NCBI GenBank assembly: GCA_021159825.1 | Contig: JAGHDR010000215.1 | Location: 1-12,366, forward strand | DNA length: 12,366 bases | From: Deltaproteobacteria bacterium | GTDB lineage: Bacteria; Desulfobacterota; DSM-4660; Desulfatiglandales; Desulfatiglandaceae | Direction of reading: 5' to 3' | In this document: in pieces, positions 3,059 to 12,366 of the stretch | Layout of the letters: each line of letters begins with the position of its first letter | How positions within the stretch are numbered: the first letter of the stretch is position 1 | Translations under genes and position numbers: made by a program | The notes under the pieces: model-generated | What the model was told of the DNA's origin: nothing | The model's input: only the letters and a program-made list of their open reading frames with translations | Database searches by the model: none

Positions 3059-3553
3059 ATGAGCGAAAAATCCGATATCAGAGTTCTACTCATTGATGAT
3101 GAAGAAACCCTAGTTGAGTATCTCTCAAAACGTCTTTTGAGGGAAGGGTACACGGTAAAAGCCACTTTTTCCGGCGAGGAAGCCACTGAAGTGGCCAACA
3201 ATGATGATTTTGATGTGGCCATCGTTGACCTCAAAATGCCGGGCATGGATGGGGTTGAGACCCAGAAAAGGCTCAAGAAAATCCAGCCTTTTCTCCAGTG
3301 TGTTGTCCTCACCGGTCATGGGACCATCGATACAGCCCTGGAAAGTGGGAAGAAAGAAGCCTTTAAGTATTTGCTCAAGCCCATTGAATACGACAATCTG
3401 GTTGAGACCATCAATGAGGCTTATGAGCACAAAGTGCAGTTGCAGAATGCCAGATTCAAAGACGAAGTGGAGGACATCTACCGCTCAGGTCTCGGGGCCA
3501 GGGGAATGAAGAAAGCCATGAGCAAATTACGAAAGATTTATGGAATCTCCTGA
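3059..3553 (+). CDS. Receiver-only response regulator
   Basis: This 164-residue cytoplasmic phospho-acceptor is the likely partner of the histidine kinase that follows. The CheY-like receiver domain covers about residues 6-122. The acidic pocket is IDDEE (12-16, Asp13-Asp14), the phospho-accepting Asp57 lies in VDLKMPGMDG (56-65), the switch residue is Thr85 in VLTGHG, and Lys107 is in YLLKPIEY. No DNA-binding, AAA+ or enzymatic output domain follows. The charged, probably helical tail (about 123-164) is rich in Lys, Arg and Glu. The ATG at 3059 has AAGGAG (3044-3049) 9 nt upstream. Its last 14 nt overlap the start of the kinase gene, which implies coupled translation. Without an output domain it must act by protein-protein contact or pass phosphate on to another protein. 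The target is unknown. Confidence 0.93.
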   Translation: MSEKSDIRVLLIDDEETLVEYLSKRLLREGYTVKATFSGEEATEVANNDDFDVAIVDLKMPGMDGVETQKRLKKIQPFLQCVVLTGHGTIDTALESGKKEAFKYLLKPIEYDNLVETINEAYEHKVQLQNARFKDEVEDIYRSGLGARGMKKAMSKLRKIYGIS

Positions 3554-4706
3554 GACACTCCAGGCAAAACTGAAAAAAGCAAACGAGGCCCTCTCTGAGA
3601 AAAAAGAGGCGCTCCATCGGGCCAGGGACTATCTGGAAAATGTTCTGGAAAATTCAAGGGACATGGTTTTCAGGGCGGATTTGGATGATGTGCTGGTTTC
3701 TTTCAGCAAAGGGGGAGAATCGGCGCTGGGTTATACCCGGGAGGAACTCTCCGGTCGGAAAATGAAAGATCTGGCTGAGCATCCCCATGATTTTGAGAGC
3801 CTGGCGGTTCAATGCTTGGAAAAGAAGGAAACTGTCCGTGAAGAAATTTCTTTTCAGCACAAAACCGGCCGCATCGTCTATTGTGAAGTGATCCTCTCGC
3901 CTTTGACCAACACCCGTGGAAAGGTCATCGGCATGGCGGGTGTGTGCCGGGATATAACCGCCTGGAAGAAGTTCAAGGAAGACCTCATCCGGGTGGATCG
4001 CCTGGCCGAGGTGGGGCGTATCGCTTCCGGAATCGTTCATGAACTTAACAACCCCGTGGCCGTGATCGGCGAGATTTCCGGCTGGGTCGGGTCGGTGGCG
4101 GGTGATGCGGAAGGACTGAGTGAGGAAGACCGTGAAGAAATAAAGACCTCGATTCGGCATATCGGAGAACAGACCCAACGGTGCCGAAATATTACCCACC
4201 AACTGTTGAGTTTTGTCCGTGAATCAAAACTGGCCACCTCATCCCTGGATGCTCACGAACTTCTGAAAGAGACGATCAATCTACTGACCCCTGAATTGAA
4301 ATTCACGGATGTCGAAATTGTATATAATTTCCTGGAAGGTCCTGTTTTTATCAATTCCGATAAGCAGTTGCTGGAACAGGTTTTTGTGAATTTCATATCC
4401 AATGCCGTTTATGCCGTGAAGGAGAAGGGGGAGAAGAGGGGGCGAATTACGCTGGAAACGTTTTTGGACGACTCCGGGGATTCCCCTATGGTAGGAATCG
4501 CTATCTCCGACACGGGTGTCGGCATTTCCAGGAAAGATCAGAAAAGCATCTACGAATATTTTTATTCCACCAAACCACCCGGCAAGGGGACGGGCCTGGG
4601 CCTTCCCATTAGCCGCAACATCATCAAGAATTTAGGAGGAAGCCTTTCGCTTGAAAGTGAGCCGGGAGAAGGCACGACTTTTACGGTTCGATTGCCGGTT
4701 TCGTAA
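3540..4706 (+). CDS. Soluble PAS-domain sensor histidine kinase
   Basis: This 388-residue kinase probably phosphorylates the preceding receiver protein. A Lys/Glu-rich coiled coil (about 4-35) leads into a PAS sensor domain (about 33-145) with GYTREELSGR (64-73) and the typical closing motif GVCRDIT (134-140). The HisKA dimerisation domain has the phospho-accepting His167 in GIVHELNNP, the NtrB-like form. The HATPase domain shows the N box NFISNAVYAV (284-293), the G1 box DTGVGI (324-329) and the G2 box GKGTGLGL (348-355). No transmembrane segment or signal peptide is visible, so the signal should be cytoplasmic. The start at 3540 is the first ATG after an in-frame stop at 3519-3521 and lies inside the response regulator gene, with only a weak ribosome site. 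The PAS ligand cannot be told from sequence, and no Cys or His cluster points clearly to heme or an FeS cofactor. Confidence 0.94.
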   Translation: MESPETLQAKLKKANEALSEKKEALHRARDYLENVLENSRDMVFRADLDDVLVSFSKGGESALGYTREELSGRKMKDLAEHPHDFESLAVQCLEKKETVREEISFQHKTGRIVYCEVILSPLTNTRGKVIGMAGVCRDITAWKKFKEDLIRVDRLAEVGRIASGIVHELNNPVAVIGEISGWVGSVAGDAEGLSEEDREEIKTSIRHIGEQTQRCRNITHQLLSFVRESKLATSSLDAHELLKETINLLTPELKFTDVEIVYNFLEGPVFINSDKQLLEQVFVNFISNAVYAVKEKGEKRGRITLETFLDDSGDSPMVGIAISDTGVGISRKDQKSIYEYFYSTKPPGKGTGLGLPISRNIIKNLGGSLSLESEPGEGTTFTVRLPVS

Positions 4707-4790: not shown

Positions 4791-5372
4791 TTGAAGGAAC
4801 ATTTGGCAGAAGTGAAAACCCTCCACCTTGGGAACGTGTCCGGCAGCAGGTCCGGTGGTTTGCCTGAGCATCCCGCCCCAAGACCCATTTTTTCTCGTAT
4901 TATAACGTTCATTGTCCTGATAGGTGTCTGGGTGATTCTTTCAGGAAAATTTGATCTGTTTCACCTGAGCCTTGGCCTCATTTCATGCGCCATTGTGACT
5001 ATTCTTTCCGGTGATCTTCTGTTTCCCGAAACAAGAACCGGAGGGCTGTTCCGGCATATACTGCCGGTGATCAACTATGTGCCATGGCTCTTGTATCAGG
5101 TGGTCTTGGCGAACCTTCATATCCTGTATCTGGTGTTCCATCCCCGTATGATGGAATTGATCGATCCTCAAATCATTCGATTTGACAGTACACTCAAAAA
5201 AGAAATTTCCCTGGTGACCTTTGCCAACTCCATTACCCTGACCCCGGGCACCATCACCATGTATGTCTCGGTGGAAGGTGCATTTCAGGTGCATGCCATT
5301 GACAAGGCATCTGCTGACCCGCTTCCAGGTGAAATGGAAAGAAGGATTGCAAGGGCCTTTGAGGACGAATGA
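4791..5372 (+). CDS. mrpE: Mrp antiporter subunit E (MnhE/MbhA-like)
   Basis: This is a membrane subunit of the Mrp-type cation/proton antiporter complex, 193 residues long and PF01899-like. A polar tail of about 33 residues at the N terminus precedes three hydrophobic segments (about 36-51, 56-74 and 90-117). The family signature NSITLTPGTIT is at 146-156 and is followed by V-H-A-I-D (167-171). The start is a TTG at 4791, chosen because the purine-rich AAAGGGGG (4777-4784) sits 6 nt upstream. The next candidates, GTG codons at 4812 and 4836, lack such a site. It is the first gene of the antiporter operon and lies 84 nt after the kinase gene. It overlaps mrpF by 4 nt (ATGA). In standard mrp operons the E subunit comes fifth; as first gene it mirrors mbhA. 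Confidence 0.93.
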   Translation: MKEHLAEVKTLHLGNVSGSRSGGLPEHPAPRPIFSRIITFIVLIGVWVILSGKFDLFHLSLGLISCAIVTILSGDLLFPETRTGGLFRHILPVINYVPWLLYQVVLANLHILYLVFHPRMMELIDPQIIRFDSTLKKEISLVTFANSITLTPGTITMYVSVEGAFQVHAIDKASADPLPGEMERRIARAFEDE

Positions 5373-5659
5373 TGGTGAATGTTTTTCTATATGCCGGTCT
5401 TTTTTTGTGTCTGCTGATGGTTGCTTCACTCTACCGGTCGGTTTTCGGCCCCACGGTTTTGGACCGCTTGATCGGCGTCAATGCCATCGGCAGCAAGACC
5501 GTTATCCTCCTTCTCCTGATCGGGTTGATTTATGAACGTCTGGATATGTTTGTTGATATTGCGCTGGCTTATGCGCTGCTCAATTTTATGGCGGTCTTGG
5601 CGGCATCCAGGTATTTCCAGAAACGAAAAGGGTTGTACGAGGAGCCGCCTTATAAATAA
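5369..5659 (+). CDS. mrpF: Mrp antiporter subunit F (MnhF/MbhB-like)
   Basis: This small membrane subunit of 96 residues has three predicted helices (about 4-22, 34-54 and 59-80). The family hallmark GPTVLDRLIGVNAI (27-40) includes the conserved Asp32, and a second acidic residue, Asp63, lies in the third helix (MFVDIALAYALLNF). Length and topology are normal for MrpF. The start ATG at 5369 overlaps the mrpE stop in an ATGA arrangement, so translation is probably coupled. A second ATG follows directly at 5372 and could equally be used. In the Mrp complex, subunits E, F and G form the small-subunit side of the membrane arm thought to be involved in cation movement. Confidence 0.94.
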   Translation: MMVNVFLYAGLFLCLLMVASLYRSVFGPTVLDRLIGVNAIGSKTVILLLLIGLIYERLDMFVDIALAYALLNFMAVLAASRYFQKRKGLYEEPPYK

Positions 5660-5683
5660 TTGGGTGGAGAGGGTGTGAATTTC

Positions 5684-6007
5684 ATGGATATTATCGTTGT
5701 GTTTTTGATCATCTGCGGCCTGGTTTTTTTTACCGGGGGCGCCGTGGGGATCCTTCGCTTCCCGGATTTTTATACCCGGCTGCATCCGGCCGGCAAGATG
5801 GATACCCTGGGGTCTTTTCTCATGGTGCTGGCCGTATCCCTTTTTAACCTGCGCGAATTTTCATGGGCCGCCGTTCTCACAAGCCTTAAAATACTTCTGA
5901 TTGTGCTTTTCATTTTCATCCTGAATCCCACCGCTACCCATGCCATTGTGGATGCGGGGTTCCGGGCGGGAATGCGGCCCTGGACGAAAAAGGATAAGGG
6001 GAAATAG
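5684..6007 (+). CDS. mrpG: Mrp antiporter subunit G (MnhG/MbhC-like)
   Basis: This membrane subunit of about 107 residues has three hydrophobic helices. The family motif follows the first helix: GILRFPDFYTRLH, then K-M-D-T-L-G, counted from about residue 22. The polar C-terminal tail is RPWTKKDKGK. The start is uncertain. The ATG at 5684 gives an N terminus that begins right at the first helix, as usual for MrpG, and has GGAGAGG (5666-5672) upstream. An in-frame GTG at 5675 with GGAG 5 nt upstream would add three residues, and a TTG at 5660 directly after the mrpF stop is also possible. It is separated by only 3 nt from the DUF4040 gene that follows. Confidence 0.92.
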   Translation: MDIIVVFLIICGLVFFTGGAVGILRFPDFYTRLHPAGKMDTLGSFLMVLAVSLFNLREFSWAAVLTSLKILLIVLFIFILNPTATHAIVDAGFRAGMRPWTKKDKGK

Positions 6008-6010
6008 ACC

Positions 6011-6256
6011 ATGATCTGGGAACTGGACCTGGCCATTCTGATTCTGGTGATTGTTGCGGCTATTGGCGTCATACAGGTGAAAGACCTGCTGGGATGCGCC
6101 ATTTTGTTCAGTGCTTACAGCTTTCTCATGTGTCTGCTCTGGGCCATTATGGGGGCCGTGGACGTGGCATTTACCGAAGCATCGGTGGGGGCGGGTGTCA
6201 GCACCGTTTTTTTTGTGGCCGCCGTATTTCGAACCACCCGGAGGACCAAGGATTGA
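6011..6256 (+). CDS. DUF4040 / MbhD-like subunit (detached piece of the MrpA C-terminal region)
   Basis: This small hydrophobic protein of 81 residues has about three helices. The sequence VKDLLGCAILFSAYSFLMC (23-41), followed by MGAVDVAFTEASVGAGVST (47-65), is the DUF4040/MbhD signature (D-V-A-x-T-E-A-x-V-G-A-G). In canonical Mrp systems this domain lies in the C-terminal part of the large MrpA protein. Here it is a free-standing gene, as in archaeal Mbh and Mbs complexes. A purine-rich GGGGA stands a few bases before the ATG. Its stop overlaps the TTG start of the next gene (TTGA, 4 nt). The acidic pair Asp51 and Glu56 sits within the membrane and matches conserved residues proposed to take part in ion transfer. 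Confidence 0.88.
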   Translation: MIWELDLAILILVIVAAIGVIQVKDLLGCAILFSAYSFLMCLLWAIMGAVDVAFTEASVGAGVSTVFFVAAVFRTTRRTKD

Positions 6257-7077
6257 AGGCGATCGGTTTGATCATCGTTGTTCTGGCCGGGGCGCTCCTG
6301 CTCTATTCCACACAGGATTTCCCCTTCTGGGGTGATCCCGCATCGCCCGCCGGCACCCATACCGCCACCTACTATCTTACAAAAGCCTTTGAAGAGACTT
6401 CCGTTCCCAATGTGGTGACGGCGGTTCTGGCCGACTATCGCGGGTTTGACACCATGTTTGAGACCGGTGTTATTTTTTGCGCGGGCCTAGGATGTTTTGT
6501 CCTGTTGAGGTTGTCCAGGAGTCGGGACGAGGATAGTTATTATCGCCATGTGGCCACCGGTATCACCCTACACATCAAGAGCGCCAAAATACCCGACGTC
6601 TCCAGTGAGTTTGAACGAATCGACACCCTTTGGACGCCATATGATCTGATTGTTAAAACGGTTTGCAGGCTCTTGGCGCCTTTTGTTCAACTTTTTGGGT
6701 TATATGTGATCGCCCATGGGCATCACAGTCCCGGCGGCGGGTTTCAGGGAGGTGTGATTTTAGGGGCCAGTGTGATTCTCATCGCCATCAGCCACAACAT
6801 GCGTACCGCCATCGGGCGCATCAGTGAAAAGACCATTCACATCCTCATGGCCGTGGGCGTGCTTCTCTATTCAGGCATTGGCGCCCTGTGCATCCTTCTG
6901 GGGGGGAATTTTCTGGATTACGCAAGCCTGAGCAGGATACTGTTCACCAATGAAATCGAAGCCCGTTCATTGGGTATCCTTGGCGTTGAAGTGGGCGTGG
7001 GGATCACGGTGATGGCGGTTATGATTACCATCTATAACAACTTGAGTTCGGATGGCAGGCTGGATGAAGGATTATAG
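6253..7077 (+). CDS. mrpB: MbhE-MrpB fusion: Mrp antiporter subunit B with an N-terminal MrpA-type domain
   Basis: This 274-residue membrane protein consists of two known modules. Residues 1 to about 90 resemble MbhE, the last domain of MrpA: D-F-P-F-W-G-D-P (22-29), S-P-A-x-T-H, then VPNVVTAVLADYRGFDT (51-67) and a second helix (72-86). Residues about 128-262 form the MrpB/MnhB domain, with HGHHSPGGGFQGG (155-167) and four hydrophobic helices. A polar linker (88-127) joins them. The TTG at 6253 is taken as start because GGAGG (6240-6244) lies 8 nt upstream and it overlaps the preceding stop as TTGA. A start farther upstream would read through the DUF4040 gene in another frame and lacks motif support. 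Together with the previous gene it supplies the MrpA tail domains. No full MrpA is encoded within the window. Confidence 0.9.
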   Translation: MKAIGLIIVVLAGALLLYSTQDFPFWGDPASPAGTHTATYYLTKAFEETSVPNVVTAVLADYRGFDTMFETGVIFCAGLGCFVLLRLSRSRDEDSYYRHVATGITLHIKSAKIPDVSSEFERIDTLWTPYDLIVKTVCRLLAPFVQLFGLYVIAHGHHSPGGGFQGGVILGASVILIAISHNMRTAIGRISEKTIHILMAVGVLLYSGIGALCILLGGNFLDYASLSRILFTNEIEARSLGILGVEVGVGITVMAVMITIYNNLSSDGRLDEGL

Positions 7078-7080
7078 AAG

Positions 7081-7470
7081 ATGAGCGATCTGGTGGTGAC
7101 CCTTCTGGGTAAGTATAATTATTGGCTGTGTGTTATTTTAATGATGATCGGCCTTTACGCCATGATTGCCAAGAACAACCTCATTAAGAAACTGGTGGGG
7201 ATGAATATTTTTCAAACCTCCATTATCCTTTTTTATGTGTCTATCGGGTGTAAAAAAGGGGCCACAATTTCCATCCTTGAACATGGTGCCGGTCATCACG
7301 GGGTGGACCCCACCCACTACATCAATCCGCTGCCCCATGTGCTGATGCTGACGGCCATTGTGGTTTCCGTATCCACCTTCGGGGTGGCCCTGGCCCTGGC
7401 CATTAAGGTTTACCGGAAGCACAAAACCCTTGAAGAAGATGAAATACTCATGCAGTTGAGGTCGGAATGA
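7081..7470 (+). CDS. mrpC: Mrp antiporter subunit C (MnhC/NuoK-like)
   Basis: This 129-residue membrane subunit is homologous to NuoK of complex I. It has three helices (about 14-29, 35-57 and 85-110). The typical stretch NLIKKLVGMNIFQTSIILFY (33-52) is followed by a variable polar loop and then PHVLMLTAIVVSVSTFGVAL (85-104). The loop between helices 2 and 3 contains a His-rich patch (H-G-A-G-H-H-G, about 68-74). The gene begins 3 nt after the mrpB stop with a weak ribosome site and ends in a 4-nt ATGA overlap with mrpD. In the Mrp complex, C sits between B and D and contributes to the linking of the antiporter-like modules. Confidence 0.94.
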   Translation: MSDLVVTLLGKYNYWLCVILMMIGLYAMIAKNNLIKKLVGMNIFQTSIILFYVSIGCKKGATISILEHGAGHHGVDPTHYINPLPHVLMLTAIVVSVSTFGVALALAIKVYRKHKTLEEDEILMQLRSE

Positions 7471-8963
7471 CCAATCACTATCCCGCACTGATTGTTGTTC
7501 TGCCGCTTTTGTTTGCTTTTGTGGTCAGCGGGGTGGCCTGGGTTAAGAAGTCGCTCTGCTTTCCCCTGACCATTGTGGGAATGGGGTTATCGGCAGGGTT
7601 ATCGGTGTGTTTACTGGGGCGGGTGGCTACAACCGGCCTGGTGGAATACCGGATGGGGGGATGGGAGACACCGTGGGGAATCGGTTATCACGTGGATTAT
7701 TTAAACGCGCTGGTGGTGACGGTGGTCACGGTTTTAGCCTTTATCAACCTGATCGCCACCCGGAAAAACGTGGTAGAAGAAACCCCCGAGAAAGCGGGGG
7801 CGTTTTACAGCCTGTATCTGCTTTTCATCGTGGGGCTCACGGGTATTGTGCTCACCGGAGACCTGTTCAATCTTTATGTGCTCCTGGAAGTTGCGTCCCT
7901 CACCAGTTATGCTTTGATCGGCATGGGAAACGGGCGTGCGCCCATGTCGGCGCTAAATTATCTCTTTGTAGGCACCGTAGGGGGATGTTTCTACCTGCTG
8001 GGGGTAGGCTACCTGTATATTATGACCGGATCGCTCAACATGGTGGATGTAGCGACTCTGCTGCCCCAAATGTATCACAGCAGTGCCGTTGTCATGGCCT
8101 TCATCTTCTGCCTGGTGGGGGTGGGCATCAAAATGGCGTTTTTCCCCCTGCACATGTGGCTTCCCAATGCCTACGGTTTTGCGCCTACGGCCGTTGGCAG
8201 TCTGATCGCACCGCTGATGACCAAGGTGATGGTCTATGTGCTCATCCGGCTTATACTTACCGTCTTCTCCGTTGATTTTGCCTTTGTAATTTTGAAAATG
8301 GGAGATCCGATGGTGTGGCTGTCGAGCCTGGCCATTGTGGCGGGCGCCGTGTTTGCCCTGGCCCAGAAAAACCTGAAACGGATGTTTTGCTACATTATCG
8401 TTTCTGAAATCGGATACATGATGGGCGGCGCTTGGCTGGGTAACAATACCGGCATGACCGGGGCCATCCTTCATATTTTTAATGATGCCATCATGACCCT
8501 GTGCCTTTTTCTCTGCGCCGGCAGTATTTATTATCGCGTTCGTGGTCTGGAACTGGATCGGTTGAAGGGGTTGTTCTCAAAAATGCCGGTGACCATGGCC
8601 TGTTTGGTGGCGGGTGCCTTGAGCATCATCGGTGTACCGCCCACTTGTGGATTTTTCAGCAAATGGTACCTCATATCGGGGGGTCTCGAGGCTGGGCAAT
8701 ATGGGTTTGTGGCGGCACTGCTGTTCAGCAGCCTGGTAAACGTCGTCCTTTTTTTCAGAGTGATTGAGATCAGTTACTACGGCGATTTTGAGGATCATCA
8801 CGGACATGGTTCGTCCGGGGAAGCTGTCATGGAGGCACCCGCGAGCATGCTGGTCCCCCTGCTCATCGTCTCCATCGGTCTGATTGTGGTGGGACTCTAC
8901 ACGGGAGGCATTGTGAACCATCTGATTAATCCCCTGTTATTGAAACAAGGCTTTTTGGGCTGA
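7467..8963 (+). CDS. mrpD: Mrp antiporter subunit D, first copy (MrpD/NuoM-like)
   Basis: This 498-residue polytopic proton-translocating subunit has about 14 helices and a Proton_antipo_M core. Pump residues assigned by motif are Glu141 in helix 5 (VLLEVASLTSY), Lys222 in helix 7 (GIKMAFFPLHMWLP), Lys253 in helix 8 (MTKVMVYVLIR) and Lys399 in helix 12 (GFFSKWYL). At the helix-10 position where NuoL-like proteins have Lys, this copy has Thr344 (HIFNDAIMTLCLF), which is a NuoM-like state. A His-rich polar loop (444-448, H-H-G-H-G) precedes the last helix pair. The start ATG at 7467 overlaps the mrpC stop by 4 nt. The gene appears complete, and the next large subunit starts 4 nt after it. Confidence 0.95.
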   Translation: MTNHYPALIVVLPLLFAFVVSGVAWVKKSLCFPLTIVGMGLSAGLSVCLLGRVATTGLVEYRMGGWETPWGIGYHVDYLNALVVTVVTVLAFINLIATRKNVVEETPEKAGAFYSLYLLFIVGLTGIVLTGDLFNLYVLLEVASLTSYALIGMGNGRAPMSALNYLFVGTVGGCFYLLGVGYLYIMTGSLNMVDVATLLPQMYHSSAVVMAFIFCLVGVGIKMAFFPLHMWLPNAYGFAPTAVGSLIAPLMTKVMVYVLIRLILTVFSVDFAFVILKMGDPMVWLSSLAIVAGAVFALAQKNLKRMFCYIIVSEIGYMMGGAWLGNNTGMTGAILHIFNDAIMTLCLFLCAGSIYYRVRGLELDRLKGLFSKMPVTMACLVAGALSIIGVPPTCGFFSKWYLISGGLEAGQYGFVAALLFSSLVNVVLFFRVIEISYYGDFEDHHGHGSSGEAVMEAPASMLVPLLIVSIGLIVVGLYTGGIVNHLINPLLLKQGFLG

Positions 8964-8967
8964 TTAT

Positions 8968-10446
8968 ATGGAAACCATTCAATCCATAAAACCCCTGATT
9001 GCGGTCCTGGTGTCCATTTGCGTGGTTCCGCTCCTGGTTTTGTGCAAAAAGCCCAATCTTCGGGAAGGCTGGACCTTTGCCGCGGCAGCCGTGAAACTTC
9101 TGCTGGTTCTCTCCATGCTGCCCGTAATTCTCAACGGCAACCAGATTGTCTATACCCTGGTAGAGGGCGTTCCGGGGGTGGCTATCAAATTCCGGGTGGA
9201 TGCGCTGGGCATGTTGTTTGCGTGTGTGGCGGCATCGCTCTGGATCATTACCAGCGCCTATTCCATCGGGTATATGCGAGGGCTCAAGGAACATAGCCAA
9301 ACAAGATATTACGTGTTTTTTGCTCTGGCTCTGTCCGCCACCATCGGCGTGGCGTTTTCAGCCAACCTCCTGACCCTTTATCTCTTCTATGAAATGCTCT
9401 CCCTGGCCACGTACCCGCTGGTGACCCACCATCAGGATCGGGAAGCACGGGCCGCGGGCCGAAAGTACCTCACCTATATTCTGGGGACTTCCATCGGTCT
9501 GGTGTTGCCCGCCATGCTGGTCTGCTATCATTTGACGGGCACCCTTGAATTTGCAAGCCAGGGGTTCCTGGCAGGTGCCTGCAACCGGGGGCTTGCGGGG
9601 GTCCTGCTGGTTTTTTTCATCTTCGGGTTTGCCAAGGCAGCCGTCATGCCCTTTCACGGATGGCTCCCGGCCGCCATGGTGGCCCCAACCCCCGTGAGCG
9701 CTCTTCTGCATGCGGTGGCCGTTGTCACAGTGGGGGTTTTCAGTATTGTCCGTATTTTGACCGGGGTATTCGGAACGGAACTATTGGGCCAATTCGATTT
9801 TGGTGTCATCATCTGTGCCATTGCATCGGTTACGATCATCGTGGCATCACTCATTGCTCTCAGCCAAGATAACCTTAAGCGGATGCTGGCCTTTTCCACC
9901 ATCGGCCAGTTGTCGTATATTATTTTGGGGGTGGGCCTTTTGTCCCCCAAAGGAATCACCGGCGGCATGCTCCATATTGCCATGCACGCCTTTGGAAAGA
10001 TCACCTTGTTTTTCTGTGCCGGCGCCATATTCATGGCCACGGGAAAGAGAAACATCAGCGAGATGGTGGGTATCGGCAGGCGAATGCCCTGGACCATGGG
10101 GGCCTTTTTTGTGGGTTCCCTGAGCATTATCGGGCTTCCGCCCACCGGGGGCTTCATCAGCAAGTGGTACCTGGTGCTGGGGACATTGGAAGCCAACCAG
10201 ATGACGTTTCTGCTTGTGCTTCTCGGAAGCTCCCTGCTTAGTGCCGCTTATTTCATGCCGGTGGTTTATCGGGCGTTTTTTCCGCCACCTGGGAAGGCCA
10301 TGTTTGAAAACAAGGTCGGGGAAGCGCCCATACTCTGCGTGGCGCCTCCGGTGATAACCGCCTTTATCTCGGTGGTCTTGTTCTTTTATCCCGAACCTTT
10401 TTTCAGGCTGGTGAGTATGGCGGTCCGGTTTATCGGGGGAAATTAG
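8968..10446 (+). CDS. Second MrpD/NuoL-like antiporter subunit
   Basis: This 492-residue polytopic member of the same proton-pump family is clearly diverged from the preceding gene. It carries Glu142 in helix 5 (YLFYEMLSLATYPLVT), Lys223 in helix 7 (FAKAAVMPFHGWLP), His248 in helix 8 (SALLHAVAVVTVGV), Lys344 in helix 10 (HIAMHAFGKITLFF) and Lys399 in helix 12 (GGFISKWYLV). His in helix 8 together with Lys in helix 10 is the NuoL/MrpA-like combination, so this protein may fill the place of the MrpA core that is missing from the locus. Annotation pipelines would probably call it subunit D. The ATG at 8968 lies 4 nt after the previous stop with no clear ribosome site, so reinitiation is likely. 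It ends about 10 nt before a small membrane-protein gene. Confidence 0.93.
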   Translation: METIQSIKPLIAVLVSICVVPLLVLCKKPNLREGWTFAAAAVKLLLVLSMLPVILNGNQIVYTLVEGVPGVAIKFRVDALGMLFACVAASLWIITSAYSIGYMRGLKEHSQTRYYVFFALALSATIGVAFSANLLTLYLFYEMLSLATYPLVTHHQDREARAAGRKYLTYILGTSIGLVLPAMLVCYHLTGTLEFASQGFLAGACNRGLAGVLLVFFIFGFAKAAVMPFHGWLPAAMVAPTPVSALLHAVAVVTVGVFSIVRILTGVFGTELLGQFDFGVIICAIASVTIIVASLIALSQDNLKRMLAFSTIGQLSYIILGVGLLSPKGITGGMLHIAMHAFGKITLFFCAGAIFMATGKRNISEMVGIGRRMPWTMGAFFVGSLSIIGLPPTGGFISKWYLVLGTLEANQMTFLLVLLGSSLLSAAYFMPVVYRAFFPPPGKAMFENKVGEAPILCVAPPVITAFISVVLFFYPEPFFRLVSMAVRFIGGN

Positions 10447-10456
10447 GAGCGTTTAA

Positions 10457-10588
10457 ATGACTGAAAACAATCAAGAGAAAATGGAACTCAGCCATGAGCC
10501 CGTGCCGGGGTACAGAACAGCCTTTTTTATTTCCATTACGGTGGGTTCCCTGTACCTGGCGCTGATTCTTTACAACACGCTGTTTTGA
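10457..10588 (+). CDS. Small single-helix membrane protein in the antiporter operon
   Basis: This open frame of 43 residues is supported by AGGAG (10445-10449) 7 nt before its ATG and by its place between two operon genes. A polar N terminus (1-18) is followed by V-P-G-Y-R-T and one hydrophobic helix (about 22-40, FFISITVGSLYLALILYNT), ending shortly after it. There is no catalytic motif and no named family is recognised. It is probably an accessory or assembly subunit of the complex, inferred only from position and topology. A 39-nt gap follows before the next ribosome site and gene. Confidence 0.72.
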   Translation: MTENNQEKMELSHEPVPGYRTAFFISITVGSLYLALILYNTLF

Positions 10589-10627
10589 ATTGCAGAGTGC
10601 GGAATTTATTTTAAAGAGGACTAGACC

Positions 10628-10909
10628 ATGAAAACGCCCGAAGCGAAATCAGGTGATCAGGGAGGGCCGGGAAAAAAATACCTCTTTGACAATCCCAAAA
10701 ACGTCAAGATCCTGCTGGGCTGTTTTTACGCGTCCCTGGTGGTGCTGTTGCTGATCGAGTTTTTGCTCCACAAACATCCTCATTTCGGCTGGGAAGCCTG
10801 GCCCGAGTTTTTTGCGGTCTATGGGTTCGTGGCCTGCGTGGTACTGGTGATTGTGGCGAAATACTTTCTGCGGCCCCTGGTCAAAAGAGACGAGGATTAC
10901 TATGACTGA
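10628..10909 (+). CDS. Small two-helix membrane protein in the antiporter operon
   Basis: This 93-residue protein has a polar N terminus (1-17), then YLFDNPKNVK (18-27), a first helix (about 27-47), the loop HKHPHFGWEAWPEF (48-61), and a second helix (about 60-81, AVYGFVACVVLVIVAK). It ends in an acidic tail, RDEDYYD (87-93). The ATG at 10628 is preceded by AGAGGA (10615-10620) with 7 nt spacing. The stop overlaps the next gene (ATG at 10902) by 8 nt. No catalytic motif or named family is recognised. A conserved-looking hydrophobic body with the aromatic loop, encoded within an antiporter operon, suggests a structural subunit. The exact role is unknown. Confidence 0.85.
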   Translation: MKTPEAKSGDQGGPGKKYLFDNPKNVKILLGCFYASLVVLLLIEFLLHKHPHFGWEAWPEFFAVYGFVACVVLVIVAKYFLRPLVKRDEDYYD

Positions 10910-12366
10910 TGCGGTTCCTCCGGTAATTATTTTCGTTGTGGGTGCACTGCTGGTCCCCTTTATTCCGGAACGTCTCAAAAGCGCCTGGCTGCTTTTGATC
11001 CCCGTGATCGGTTTCCTGAATCTGATGGTTCTGGGGGAGGGCACCCATTTCAGGATCGATTTTCTGGACTACCACCTGGTTTTGGGACGGGTGGACAAGC
11101 TCAGTCTGCTGTTCGCCTATGTTTTTCACCTCATCAGTTTTATCGCTATCCTTTACGCGCTTCATGTGAAAGACAACCTTCAGCAGATGATGGGCCTTCT
11201 TTATGCGGGAAGCGCCCTGGGGGCGATTTTTGCCGGTGATCTTTTCAGCTTTTTCATTTTCTGGGAAATGTTGACCGTATGTTCCATTTTCCTGATCTGG
11301 GCCCGTCGAACAGAAGCCGCGCTGGGCGCGGGGTACCCGTACCTGCTGGTTCATGTGGCCGGGGGACTGTGTTTGCTGGCGGGCATCGTGATTCATGTCA
11401 ATCAAACCGGTTCCATTCAATTTGATTATCTGGGGCTGAATGGGTTGGGCAGTTACCTCATCTTTCTGGGATTCGGCCTCAATTGTGCCTGGCCCCTGTT
11501 TCATCCGTGGCTTACCGACAGTTACCCCGAAGCCACCATCACCGGTACCATTTTTCTGAGTGCTTTTACCACCAAGGTGGCGGTCTATGCCCTGGCACGC
11601 AGTTTTCCCGGTACCGAGGCCCTCATCTGGATCGGGGCGGTTATGACGGGATTCCCCATCTTTTATGCCGTCATTGAAAATGATTTGAGACGGGTCCTGG
11701 CTTACAGCCTGGTAAACCAGGTGGGGTTCATGGTATGCGGTATCGGTATCGGGACGGCCCTGGCCATTAACGGCGCCGTGTGCCACGCCTTTAACGACAT
11801 CCTGTTCAAAGGGCTTTTGTTCATGAGTATGGGTGCGGTCATGTACCGGACGGGCAAAATCAACGGGACGGACCTGGGCGGATTGTACCGGACCATGCCG
11901 CTGACCTGCATCTTTTGTATGGTGGGAGCCGCATCCATATCTGCTTTTCCGCTTTTCAGCGGTTTTGTGAGCAAATCCATGGTGATGGATGCCGCTGCGA
12001 GCGGTCATATGCGGATTGTCTGGTTTATTCTGCTCTTTGCCTCCGCTGGTGTGTTTCACCATGCAGGCATCAAGATTCCCTATTTTGCCTTTTTTTCTCA
12101 TGATTCGGGCTGGCGGCCGAAAGAGGCGCCCATCCACATGCTGCTGGCCATGGGGATTGCGGCGTTCTTGTGCATTTTTATCGGTGTCTATCCCGCCCCT
12201 CTGTATGCATTGCTCCCATATCCCGTGGATTATGTTCCCTATACAGCGCCCCATGTGGTGGGACAAACACAGCTTCTGTTCTTCTCGGCACTGGCGTTTA
12301 CGCTGCTTTTGCGGGCCGGCATTTATCCGGCGGAAATCCGGTGCATGAACCTGGATGCGGATTGGT
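10902..12366 (+). CDS. Third MrpD-like antiporter subunit, C terminus beyond the window edge
   Basis: At least 488 residues of a third proton-pump family member are present, running off the right edge without a stop. Helix 5 has Glu122 (FFIFWEMLTVCS), helix 8 has Lys225 (FLSAFTTKVAVYALAR), helix 10 has Lys303 (HAFNDILFKGLLF) and helix 12 has Lys358 (FSGFVSKSMV). In helix 7, where the two other copies have the central Lys, this one has Asn194 (FGLNCAWPLFHPWL). The loop Y-P-E-A-T-I-T-G (208-215) is also specific to this copy. The start ATG at 10902 lies inside the end of the preceding small gene, with GAGGA (10892-10896) just upstream. The gene belongs to the same transcript. It may be an antiporter-like scaffold with an altered proton path. 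Transport ability is uncertain. Confidence 0.92.
   Translation, partial: MTDAVPPVIIFVVGALLVPFIPERLKSAWLLLIPVIGFLNLMVLGEGTHFRIDFLDYHLVLGRVDKLSLLFAYVFHLISFIAILYALHVKDNLQQMMGLLYAGSALGAIFAGDLFSFFIFWEMLTVCSIFLIWARRTEAALGAGYPYLLVHVAGGLCLLAGIVIHVNQTGSIQFDYLGLNGLGSYLIFLGFGLNCAWPLFHPWLTDSYPEATITGTIFLSAFTTKVAVYALARSFPGTEALIWIGAVMTGFPIFYAVIENDLRRVLAYSLVNQVGFMVCGIGIGTALAINGAVCHAFNDILFKGLLFMSMGAVMYRTGKINGTDLGGLYRTMPLTCIFCMVGAASISAFPLFSGFVSKSMVMDAAASGHMRIVWFILLFASAGVFHHAGIKIPYFAFFSHDSGWRPKEAPIHMLLAMGIAAFLCIFIGVYPAPLYALLPYPVDYVPYTAPHVVGQTQLLFFSALAFTLLLRAGIYPAEIRCMNLDADW

Follow-up and report, generated by a model that had tools for sequence, protein, structure and literature searches.

What does a bacterial Mrp gene cluster do when its genes stand in the order seen in the archaeal membrane-bound hydrogenase (MBH) and membrane-bound sulfane reductase (MBS): does it dock to a redox enzyme, or does it work as an antiporter on its own? 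The question is raised by a 12,366-nucleotide stretch of DNA, hereafter the window, from a Deltaproteobacteria bacterium of the family Desulfatiglandaceae (assembly GCA_021159825.1, contig JAGHDR010000215.1). An initial annotation had described genes E, F, G, MbhD, MbhE fused to MrpB, C and D without a full-length MrpA, and had offered two options, docking of this membrane module to an oxidoreductase encoded past position 12366, or a stand-alone antiporter derived from such a complex. Because the window is one entire contig and its assembly has a completeness of 75.8%, the DNA past 12366 cannot be read in its own genome, and relatives were read instead. With a probability of about 0.8, the locus is predicted from its sequence to encode a stand-alone group 3 Mrp-type monovalent cation/proton antiporter to which two further antiporter-like subunits, here called D2 and D3, have been added.

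Results

Pfam and NCBIfam profile searches, together with the open reading frame (ORF) list, found every gene named in the initial annotation, in the order given there and all on the forward strand. These are mrpE (MbhA-like, 4791..5372, TTG start, PF01899 at 1.6e-31; its length of 193 aa recurs in loci L016-L019), mrpF (MbhB-like, 5369..5659, PF04066 at 1e-13), mrpG (MbhC-like, 5660..6007, PF03334 at 5e-25, precise start uncertain), mbhD (DUF4040, part of the MrpA C-terminal domain, 6011..6256, PF13244 at 1.8e-19), an mbhE-mrpB fusion in one frame with a likely TTG start at 6253 (6253..7077, PF20501 and PF04039, the MnhB family), mrpC (MbhG/NuoK-like, 7081..7470, PF00420 at 9.8e-21) and D1, an MrpD/MbhH/MbsH-like antiporter subunit (7467..8963, PF00361). 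The earlier list was correct as far as it went but ended early, omitting three genes inside the window: D2 (8968..10446, PF00361 at 2.8e-56), an antiporter subunit with a NuoL/MrpA-type histidine in transmembrane helix (TM) 8 and without a long tail; a gene for a small protein of 93 aa (10628..10909); and the third antiporter subunit, D3 (10902..12366), which the contig end cuts at about residue 488 of 590. The top Protein Data Bank match of the MbhE-MrpB fusion was MbsE of Pyrococcus MBS (6u8y_E), in support of the proposed Mbh/Mbs-like order. A full-length mrpA was found neither in the window, by ORF list, Pfam or NCBIfam, nor downstream of the operon in the relatives read. Group 3 Mrp systems are described in PMC8415708 as having no mrpA and one or more mrpD copies, and the window likewise combines clustered MrpB, C, D, E, F and G-type subunits and three D-type genes with the lack of mrpA. 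The full-length MrpA of groups 1 and 2, separate or fused to MrpB, is absent, in contrast to the MrpA of Shinella.

The operon was traced across 163 sequences, namely the window, L016-L035 and L039-L180, whose genes were scored with profiles derived from proteins of the window, rhizobia and Escherichia coli. The loci fall into three sets, namely 20 relative loci (L016-L035), 80 named-scan loci (L041-L120, the best 80 of 577) and 60 phylum-draw loci (L121-L180, regions picked by hand, mostly one per family, from among the matches listed), with some contigs present in two sets (L041/L023, L043/L018 and L091/L028). The operon around D3 was of Mrp type in 15/21 relative, 58/83 named-scan and 33/61 phylum-draw operons, of complex I type in 2/21, 1/83 and 24/61, and of another type or cut by a contig end in 4/21, 24/83 and 4/61, respectively. 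Since Mrp-type operons around D3 recur across the three sets, the order is not a matter of chance. The order E-F-G-(MbhD)-MbhE-B-C-D1-D2-small-D3, fused or not, occurred in 49 of the 91 Mrp-type operons of the named scan and phylum draw, six of these 49 having no separately called MbhD; nine of the 91 were genuinely different in order, and the remainder lacked at least one called gene. Genomes of the same genus and family carry E-F-G-MbhD-MbhE/B-C-D1-D2-small-D3, mostly behind a response regulator and histidine kinase pair (not in L026 and L027). At E <= 1e-60, 179 of the 394 genomes from the window's phylum matched the D3 family. Almost every one of the 120 listed homologues is 590 aa long; their names, such as strain NaphS2 at 92% identity, point to Desulfobacterota, taken here on that basis as the window's phylum.

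Docking to a hydrogenase, a sulfane reductase or a ferredoxin-linked enzyme, encoded downstream or elsewhere as in MBH and MBS, would account for the order E-F-G-D-E/B-C-D1 and for the MbsE-like fusion, and the window's own genome is incomplete enough to hide a partner. However, near relatives (L016-L028) that have sequence past D3 show, instead of the oxidoreductase genes anticipated there, a gene for a cyclic nucleoside monophosphate (cNMP)-binding domain, alone (about 160-175 aa) or fused to a PAS domain, and then other genes; no nuo redox genes occurred in the same operon in the window or these relatives. Profiles for Nuo and Hyf subunits gave redox-like matches anywhere in the stretch in just 3 of 102 Mrp-type loci, and NuoB-, NuoD- or NuoH-like matches in none of the 102. 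The three are a molybdopterin oxidoreductase gene upstream in L025, another on the other strand in L069, and in L155 a weak NuoI-profile match that Pfam assigns to SLBB/4Fe-4S and that lies on the opposite strand, some 8 kb away from the operon. Downstream sequence of at least 3 kb was available in 88 of 106 Mrp-type operons and of at least 8 kb in 56. Other redox families were covered by clustering of neighbouring genes (650 ORFs, 100 Mrp-type loci; family names partly assigned by eye), where none of the 14 widest families listed looked redox-related. The widest were signalling proteins (32 loci), universal-stress-like proteins (8 loci) and ABC-transporter-like proteins (7 loci, mostly on the opposite strand), the names of the last two being given by eye.

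The membrane anchor points the same way. MBH, MBS and complex I all require a subunit of family PF00146 (NuoH/MbhM/HyfC). Of the 15 carrier genomes tested, 11 had no member of this family, among them nine with a completeness of 90% or more. A match was obtained in 11 of 14 control genomes, and the MrpB family PF04039 was found in 15/15 carriers, single-copy in 14. The 15 genomes were hand-chosen from 27 with a match, and those left out include the complex I carrier G007 (L030). Three of the four carriers with PF00146 belong to the window's genus (G001, G002 and G003), a point in favour of docking, but the match in G003, on contig C652, is part of a complex I cluster (L032) that itself carries D2-D3 as well as M-N genes. 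Neither the anchor nor the NuoB/D/I-like subunits that accompany the Mrp-like genes of MBH and MBS were found beside the operon in the relatives tested. Docking is thus unsupported, since linked redox partners of the docking kind were not found and the anchor is missing from most of the carriers tested, and we regard it as very improbable, while the stand-alone option has held up.

Conserved residues separate the three antiporter subunits. D1, whose Protein Data Bank matches are 6u8y_H first and MrpD chains next, retains Glu in TM5 and Lys in TM7, TM8 and TM12. D2 and D3 passed the thresholds of NF006236 (narrowly) and NF009310, respectively, both NCBIfam families named antiporter subunit D. 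Glu in TM5, Lys in TM7, His in TM8 (His248 in the window) and Lys in TM12 of D2 were kept in 40/40 sampled sequences, and the AlphaFold2 model of the window's own D2 had a mean predicted local distance difference test score (pLDDT) of 90.4. The central TM7 Lys is present in all six E. coli subunits compared (NuoL/M/N and HyfB/D/F), at what we take to be the corresponding E. coli residue numbers. D3 of the window has Asn194 where this Lys is expected, and residue 194 (homologue numbering) is Asn in 31/31 complex I-type and 70/101 Mrp-type D3 proteins. With the central Lys gone from this lineage, D3 probably acts there as a clamp or an altered path, not as a full third pump. The top structural match of D3 was MbsH', by profile only about 7 bits ahead of MbhH. 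In fold comparisons, the NuoL, MrpD and MrpA chains matched by D3 lay only a few Z units apart, and D2 resembled MrpD, NuoM and NuoL chains; because several chain types score so closely, the subunits cannot be sorted by fold, and sequence motifs and trees sort them better. The AlphaFold2 model of P0002, a D3 homologue 98% identical to that of the window, contains C-terminal helices at residues 488-529, 531-546, 552-567 and, finally, 572-589.

The small protein has two membrane helices, judged by eye, and a C-terminal EDYYD motif. No Pfam or NCBIfam family scored above its cut-off, and 142 homologues were aligned. In 100 of 106 Mrp-type operons its gene immediately precedes D3; D2, the small gene and D3 are hereafter called the trio.

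The same trio stands in complex I operons. On rhizobial plasmids (Rhizobium sp. Pop5, Phyllobacterium), it appears as nuoK-[D2-small-D3]-nuoM, with a D3 about 48% identical to P0002. In the phylum draw, D2 and D3 occurred in the 24 complex I operons of 61 mostly in the NuoK-NuoM interval, and after NuoN in L143 and L157; in such operons among L141-L180 (e.g., L149, L162 and L180), NuoL is missing between NuoK and NuoM. The replacement of NuoL is thus not confined to rhizobia and Manganitrophaceae, given its frequency in this draw.

Phylogenetic trees were quick, with Shimodaira-Hasegawa-like approximate likelihood-ratio support only. In a tree of 110 antiporter-like proteins, D1, D2 and D3 formed three separate groups and were not seen inside group 1 or 2 Mrp systems; long-branch warnings concerned Halo_Dc, Pepto_Da, Pepto_Dc and several Nuo and Hyf rows, among others, and odd-composition warnings Pepto_Da, Halo_Da and Pepto_Dc. 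D1 clustered with MrpD of groups 1 and 2 and with haloarchaeal and clostridial Mrp D proteins, not with MbhH/MbsH (support 85, below the starred level), which lends no support to the suggestion that the antiporter derives from a redox complex. The three D genes of a haloarchaeal operon (L186) joined the D1, D2 and D3 groups respectively, and two of the three of a clostridial operon (L185) joined D1 and D2. The tree also bears on whether the locus is an ordinary group 1-like Mrp system whose MrpA has been split into D2, MbhD and MbhE and whose D3 is a redundant duplicate of MrpD. D2 carries the TM8 His of MrpA and NuoL, and MbhD and MbhE correspond to the MrpA tail (also in PMC7419157). However, D2 falls outside MrpA, whose rows join NuoL and HyfD (support 98, starred), and D3 forms a separate group, albeit in a quick tree with long branches. 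D2 and D3 are moreover kept together across phyla and in complex I, which would be unexpected of a redundant copy, and a split MrpA appears improbable to us.

In a tree built from D2 and D3 joined, with 117 rows (90 Mrp and 27 complex I, five near-duplicates dropped), at least 5 changes between Mrp and complex I settings were required, compared with a shuffled mean of 24.7 and minimum of 21. The parsimony root state was Mrp; because the root is a single long haloarchaeal branch, this direction of exchange is likely but unproven. The opposite history, in which the D2-D3 pair was born in complex I and donated to Mrp, so that the antiporter partly descends from a complex I-like enzyme, gains from the fact that complex I rows account for much of one side of the tree, with the Mrp rows L139, L140, L164 and L177 among them. 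It is weakened by the root state, for what one long branch can tell, and by the three-D Mrp operons L186 and L185 in the D2 group, L186 also in the D3 group, and is in our view unlikely. Strict movement of D2 and D3 as a unit was also considered and is countered by the complex I-type locus L145 (G243), where D2 (10107-11588) lies among complex I-type D2 proteins (support 94) and D3 (7925-9703) lies beside an Mrp-type D3 protein (support 94), as if one of the pair had been exchanged alone.

Upstream of the operon, the window encodes a receiver-only response regulator (3059..3553, forward strand, PF00072 alone), at a position kept in most near relatives (not L026 and L027), and a PAS-domain histidine kinase (3540..4706, forward strand; PAS, HisKA and HATPase_c). 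Together with the cNMP-domain gene found after D3 in relatives, they suggest that the putative antiporter is under signal control. In L045, L050, L054 and L123, a gene for a membrane protein of about 500 aa, transporter-like by eye, lies on the same strand just upstream of mrpE. One contig (L023, G013:C199) holds two different Mrp operons face to face, the second ordered differently.

No gene joining an antiporter domain to MbhD or MbhE was found in the window or in the 102 Mrp-type loci; over-long D2 frames in L102 (740 aa) and L118 (1044 aa) contain no MbhD/MbhE domain, and the sole real fusion of this kind seen (L035, 764 aa) is in a locus without D3. The antiporter genes of L118 (6602-9736, the 1044-aa frame) and of L184 from Paraburkholderia (7988-11083, 1031 aa) may be two subunits fused head-to-tail. 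In L033 (G040, 10720-15594), the D3 frame continues into an isoleucyl-tRNA-synthetase-like part (1624 aa in all), either a real fusion or an assembly error, and genes for a 2-oxoacid:ferredoxin oxidoreductase lie upstream of D2.

Discussion

The lack of linked redox partners and the conserved gene order favour a stand-alone antiporter, for which complex formation, stoichiometry, ion, direction of transport and the role of D3 are predicted as follows. MrpE, F, G, B, MbhD and MbhE would form the cation module, MrpC and D1 an adjacent MrpD-like proton unit, and D2 an MrpA/NuoL-like proton-input unit, which has no counterpart in the stand-alone Mrp of Pyrococcus furiosus. D3 would end the row, its long lateral helix clamping D1 and D2, and would probably serve as this clamp or as a modified path instead of a complete third pump. 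Driven by the proton motive force, H+ would enter via D2 and D1, the change in charge would be relayed to MbhD, MbhE and MrpC (after the mechanisms given in PMC7419157 and PMC8415708), and the cation, most likely Na+, would exit through the E-F-G-B module. D2, the small protein and D3 are encoded by a gene set that also stands in for NuoL in complex I operons.

Several observations weigh against this picture. Antiport by the locus is itself predicted, with transport, complex and phenotype all read from genes. D2 of the window has Thr at the TM8 Lys position, and the small gene is missing from among the D genes of both three-D operons, haloarchaeal and clostridial. The long D3 helix was predicted on P0002, as D3 of the window stops at about residue 488, and its direction in a monomer model is meaningless, full-length alignments to NuoL giving a root-mean-square deviation of about 27. 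The idea that the length of helix HL counts pumps, put forward in PMC7684303, agrees with a D3 tail longer than that of MbsH' (124 residues beyond the aligned core vs about 61 for two pumps; from another anchor, 113 vs 92 in E. coli NuoL for three pumps). As a strict rule it failed, and the tail is no simple pump counter, because it ranges from 72 to 131 residues in Mrp-type D3 proteins without gene number changing to match. The P. furiosus Mrp, which according to PMC8415708 aids against acidification with Na+ as the coupling ion, is interpreted by its authors as taking Na+ in and pumping H+ out, the opposite of the direction proposed here; the direction may differ because a proton-input unit has been added in the window.

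We tentatively regard D2-small-D3 as a self-contained two-subunit pump cassette, bound by the small protein and the D3 clamp, and repeatedly exchanged between stand-alone antiporters and complex I in at least 5 switches on the joined tree, usually, though not invariably, together. The window would show the cassette in its antiporter setting, an Mrp with three antiporter-like subunits whose relatives range from haloarchaea to Proteobacteria and from which green complex I could have obtained its extra pump; D3 would be a clamp or altered path in the window's lineage. Our odds for this proposal were even, and the separate D2 and D3 histories in L145 lowered them to slightly below that. On the question of how complex I gained its series of pumps from Mrp-like antiporters, current models compare systems that contain between one and five antiporter-like subunits. 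The operon type adds a system that is widespread, free of redox subunits and equipped with three antiporter-like subunits; close counterparts of two of them occur distally in some complex I enzymes. The idea of modular evolution becomes testable because the same D2-D3 pair can be compared in the presence and absence of a redox arm. The naturally occurring Lys/Asn split between two D3 groups offers a ready comparison for the role of the TM7 Lys. Neither the link of this operon type to the pair in green complex I, reportedly the subject of work by Degli Esposti and Martinez Romero in 2016, nor the small subunit was found described in the literature covered, which mostly excluded subscription papers.

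Two elements of the arrangement are already known: stand-alone Mrp in Mbh order (PMC8415708) and NuoM/NuoL-like genes after mrpD (PMC7784846). The former, mrpEFGBB'CD of P. furiosus (Pf1147-53), shares with the window the E-F-G-B-C-D order, the lack of mrpA and an operon without redox genes, and its existence means that Mbh order is not diagnostic alone; it differs in having one antiporter-like subunit and, in the words of that source, "no energy-input module", whereas the window adds D2, the small protein and D3. The latter genes, in the group 3 Mrp locus of 'Ca. Nitrospira alkalitolerans', were compared by description only and are not tied to the complex I pair in the part of PMC7784846 consulted. 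The cyanobacterial group 3 operon mrpCD1D2EFGAB, as given in PMC5703873, likewise has several D genes and an irregular order, although the order and number of its D genes are unlike those of the window. MBH and MBS of P. furiosus (PMC7684303) share the Mrp-like arm subunits and the fused MbhE-B in the form of MbsE, with D1 resembling MbsH and D3 resembling MbsH', but the window's type is without the MbhM/NuoH anchor or a peripheral arm. Green complex I, in which two MrpD-like subunits replace NuoL according to PMC9040806, shares the D2-small-D3 trio with the window; there, alongside nuo redox genes that the window does not have, the trio replaces the NuoL of a redox enzyme, whereas here it belongs to an antiporter operon.

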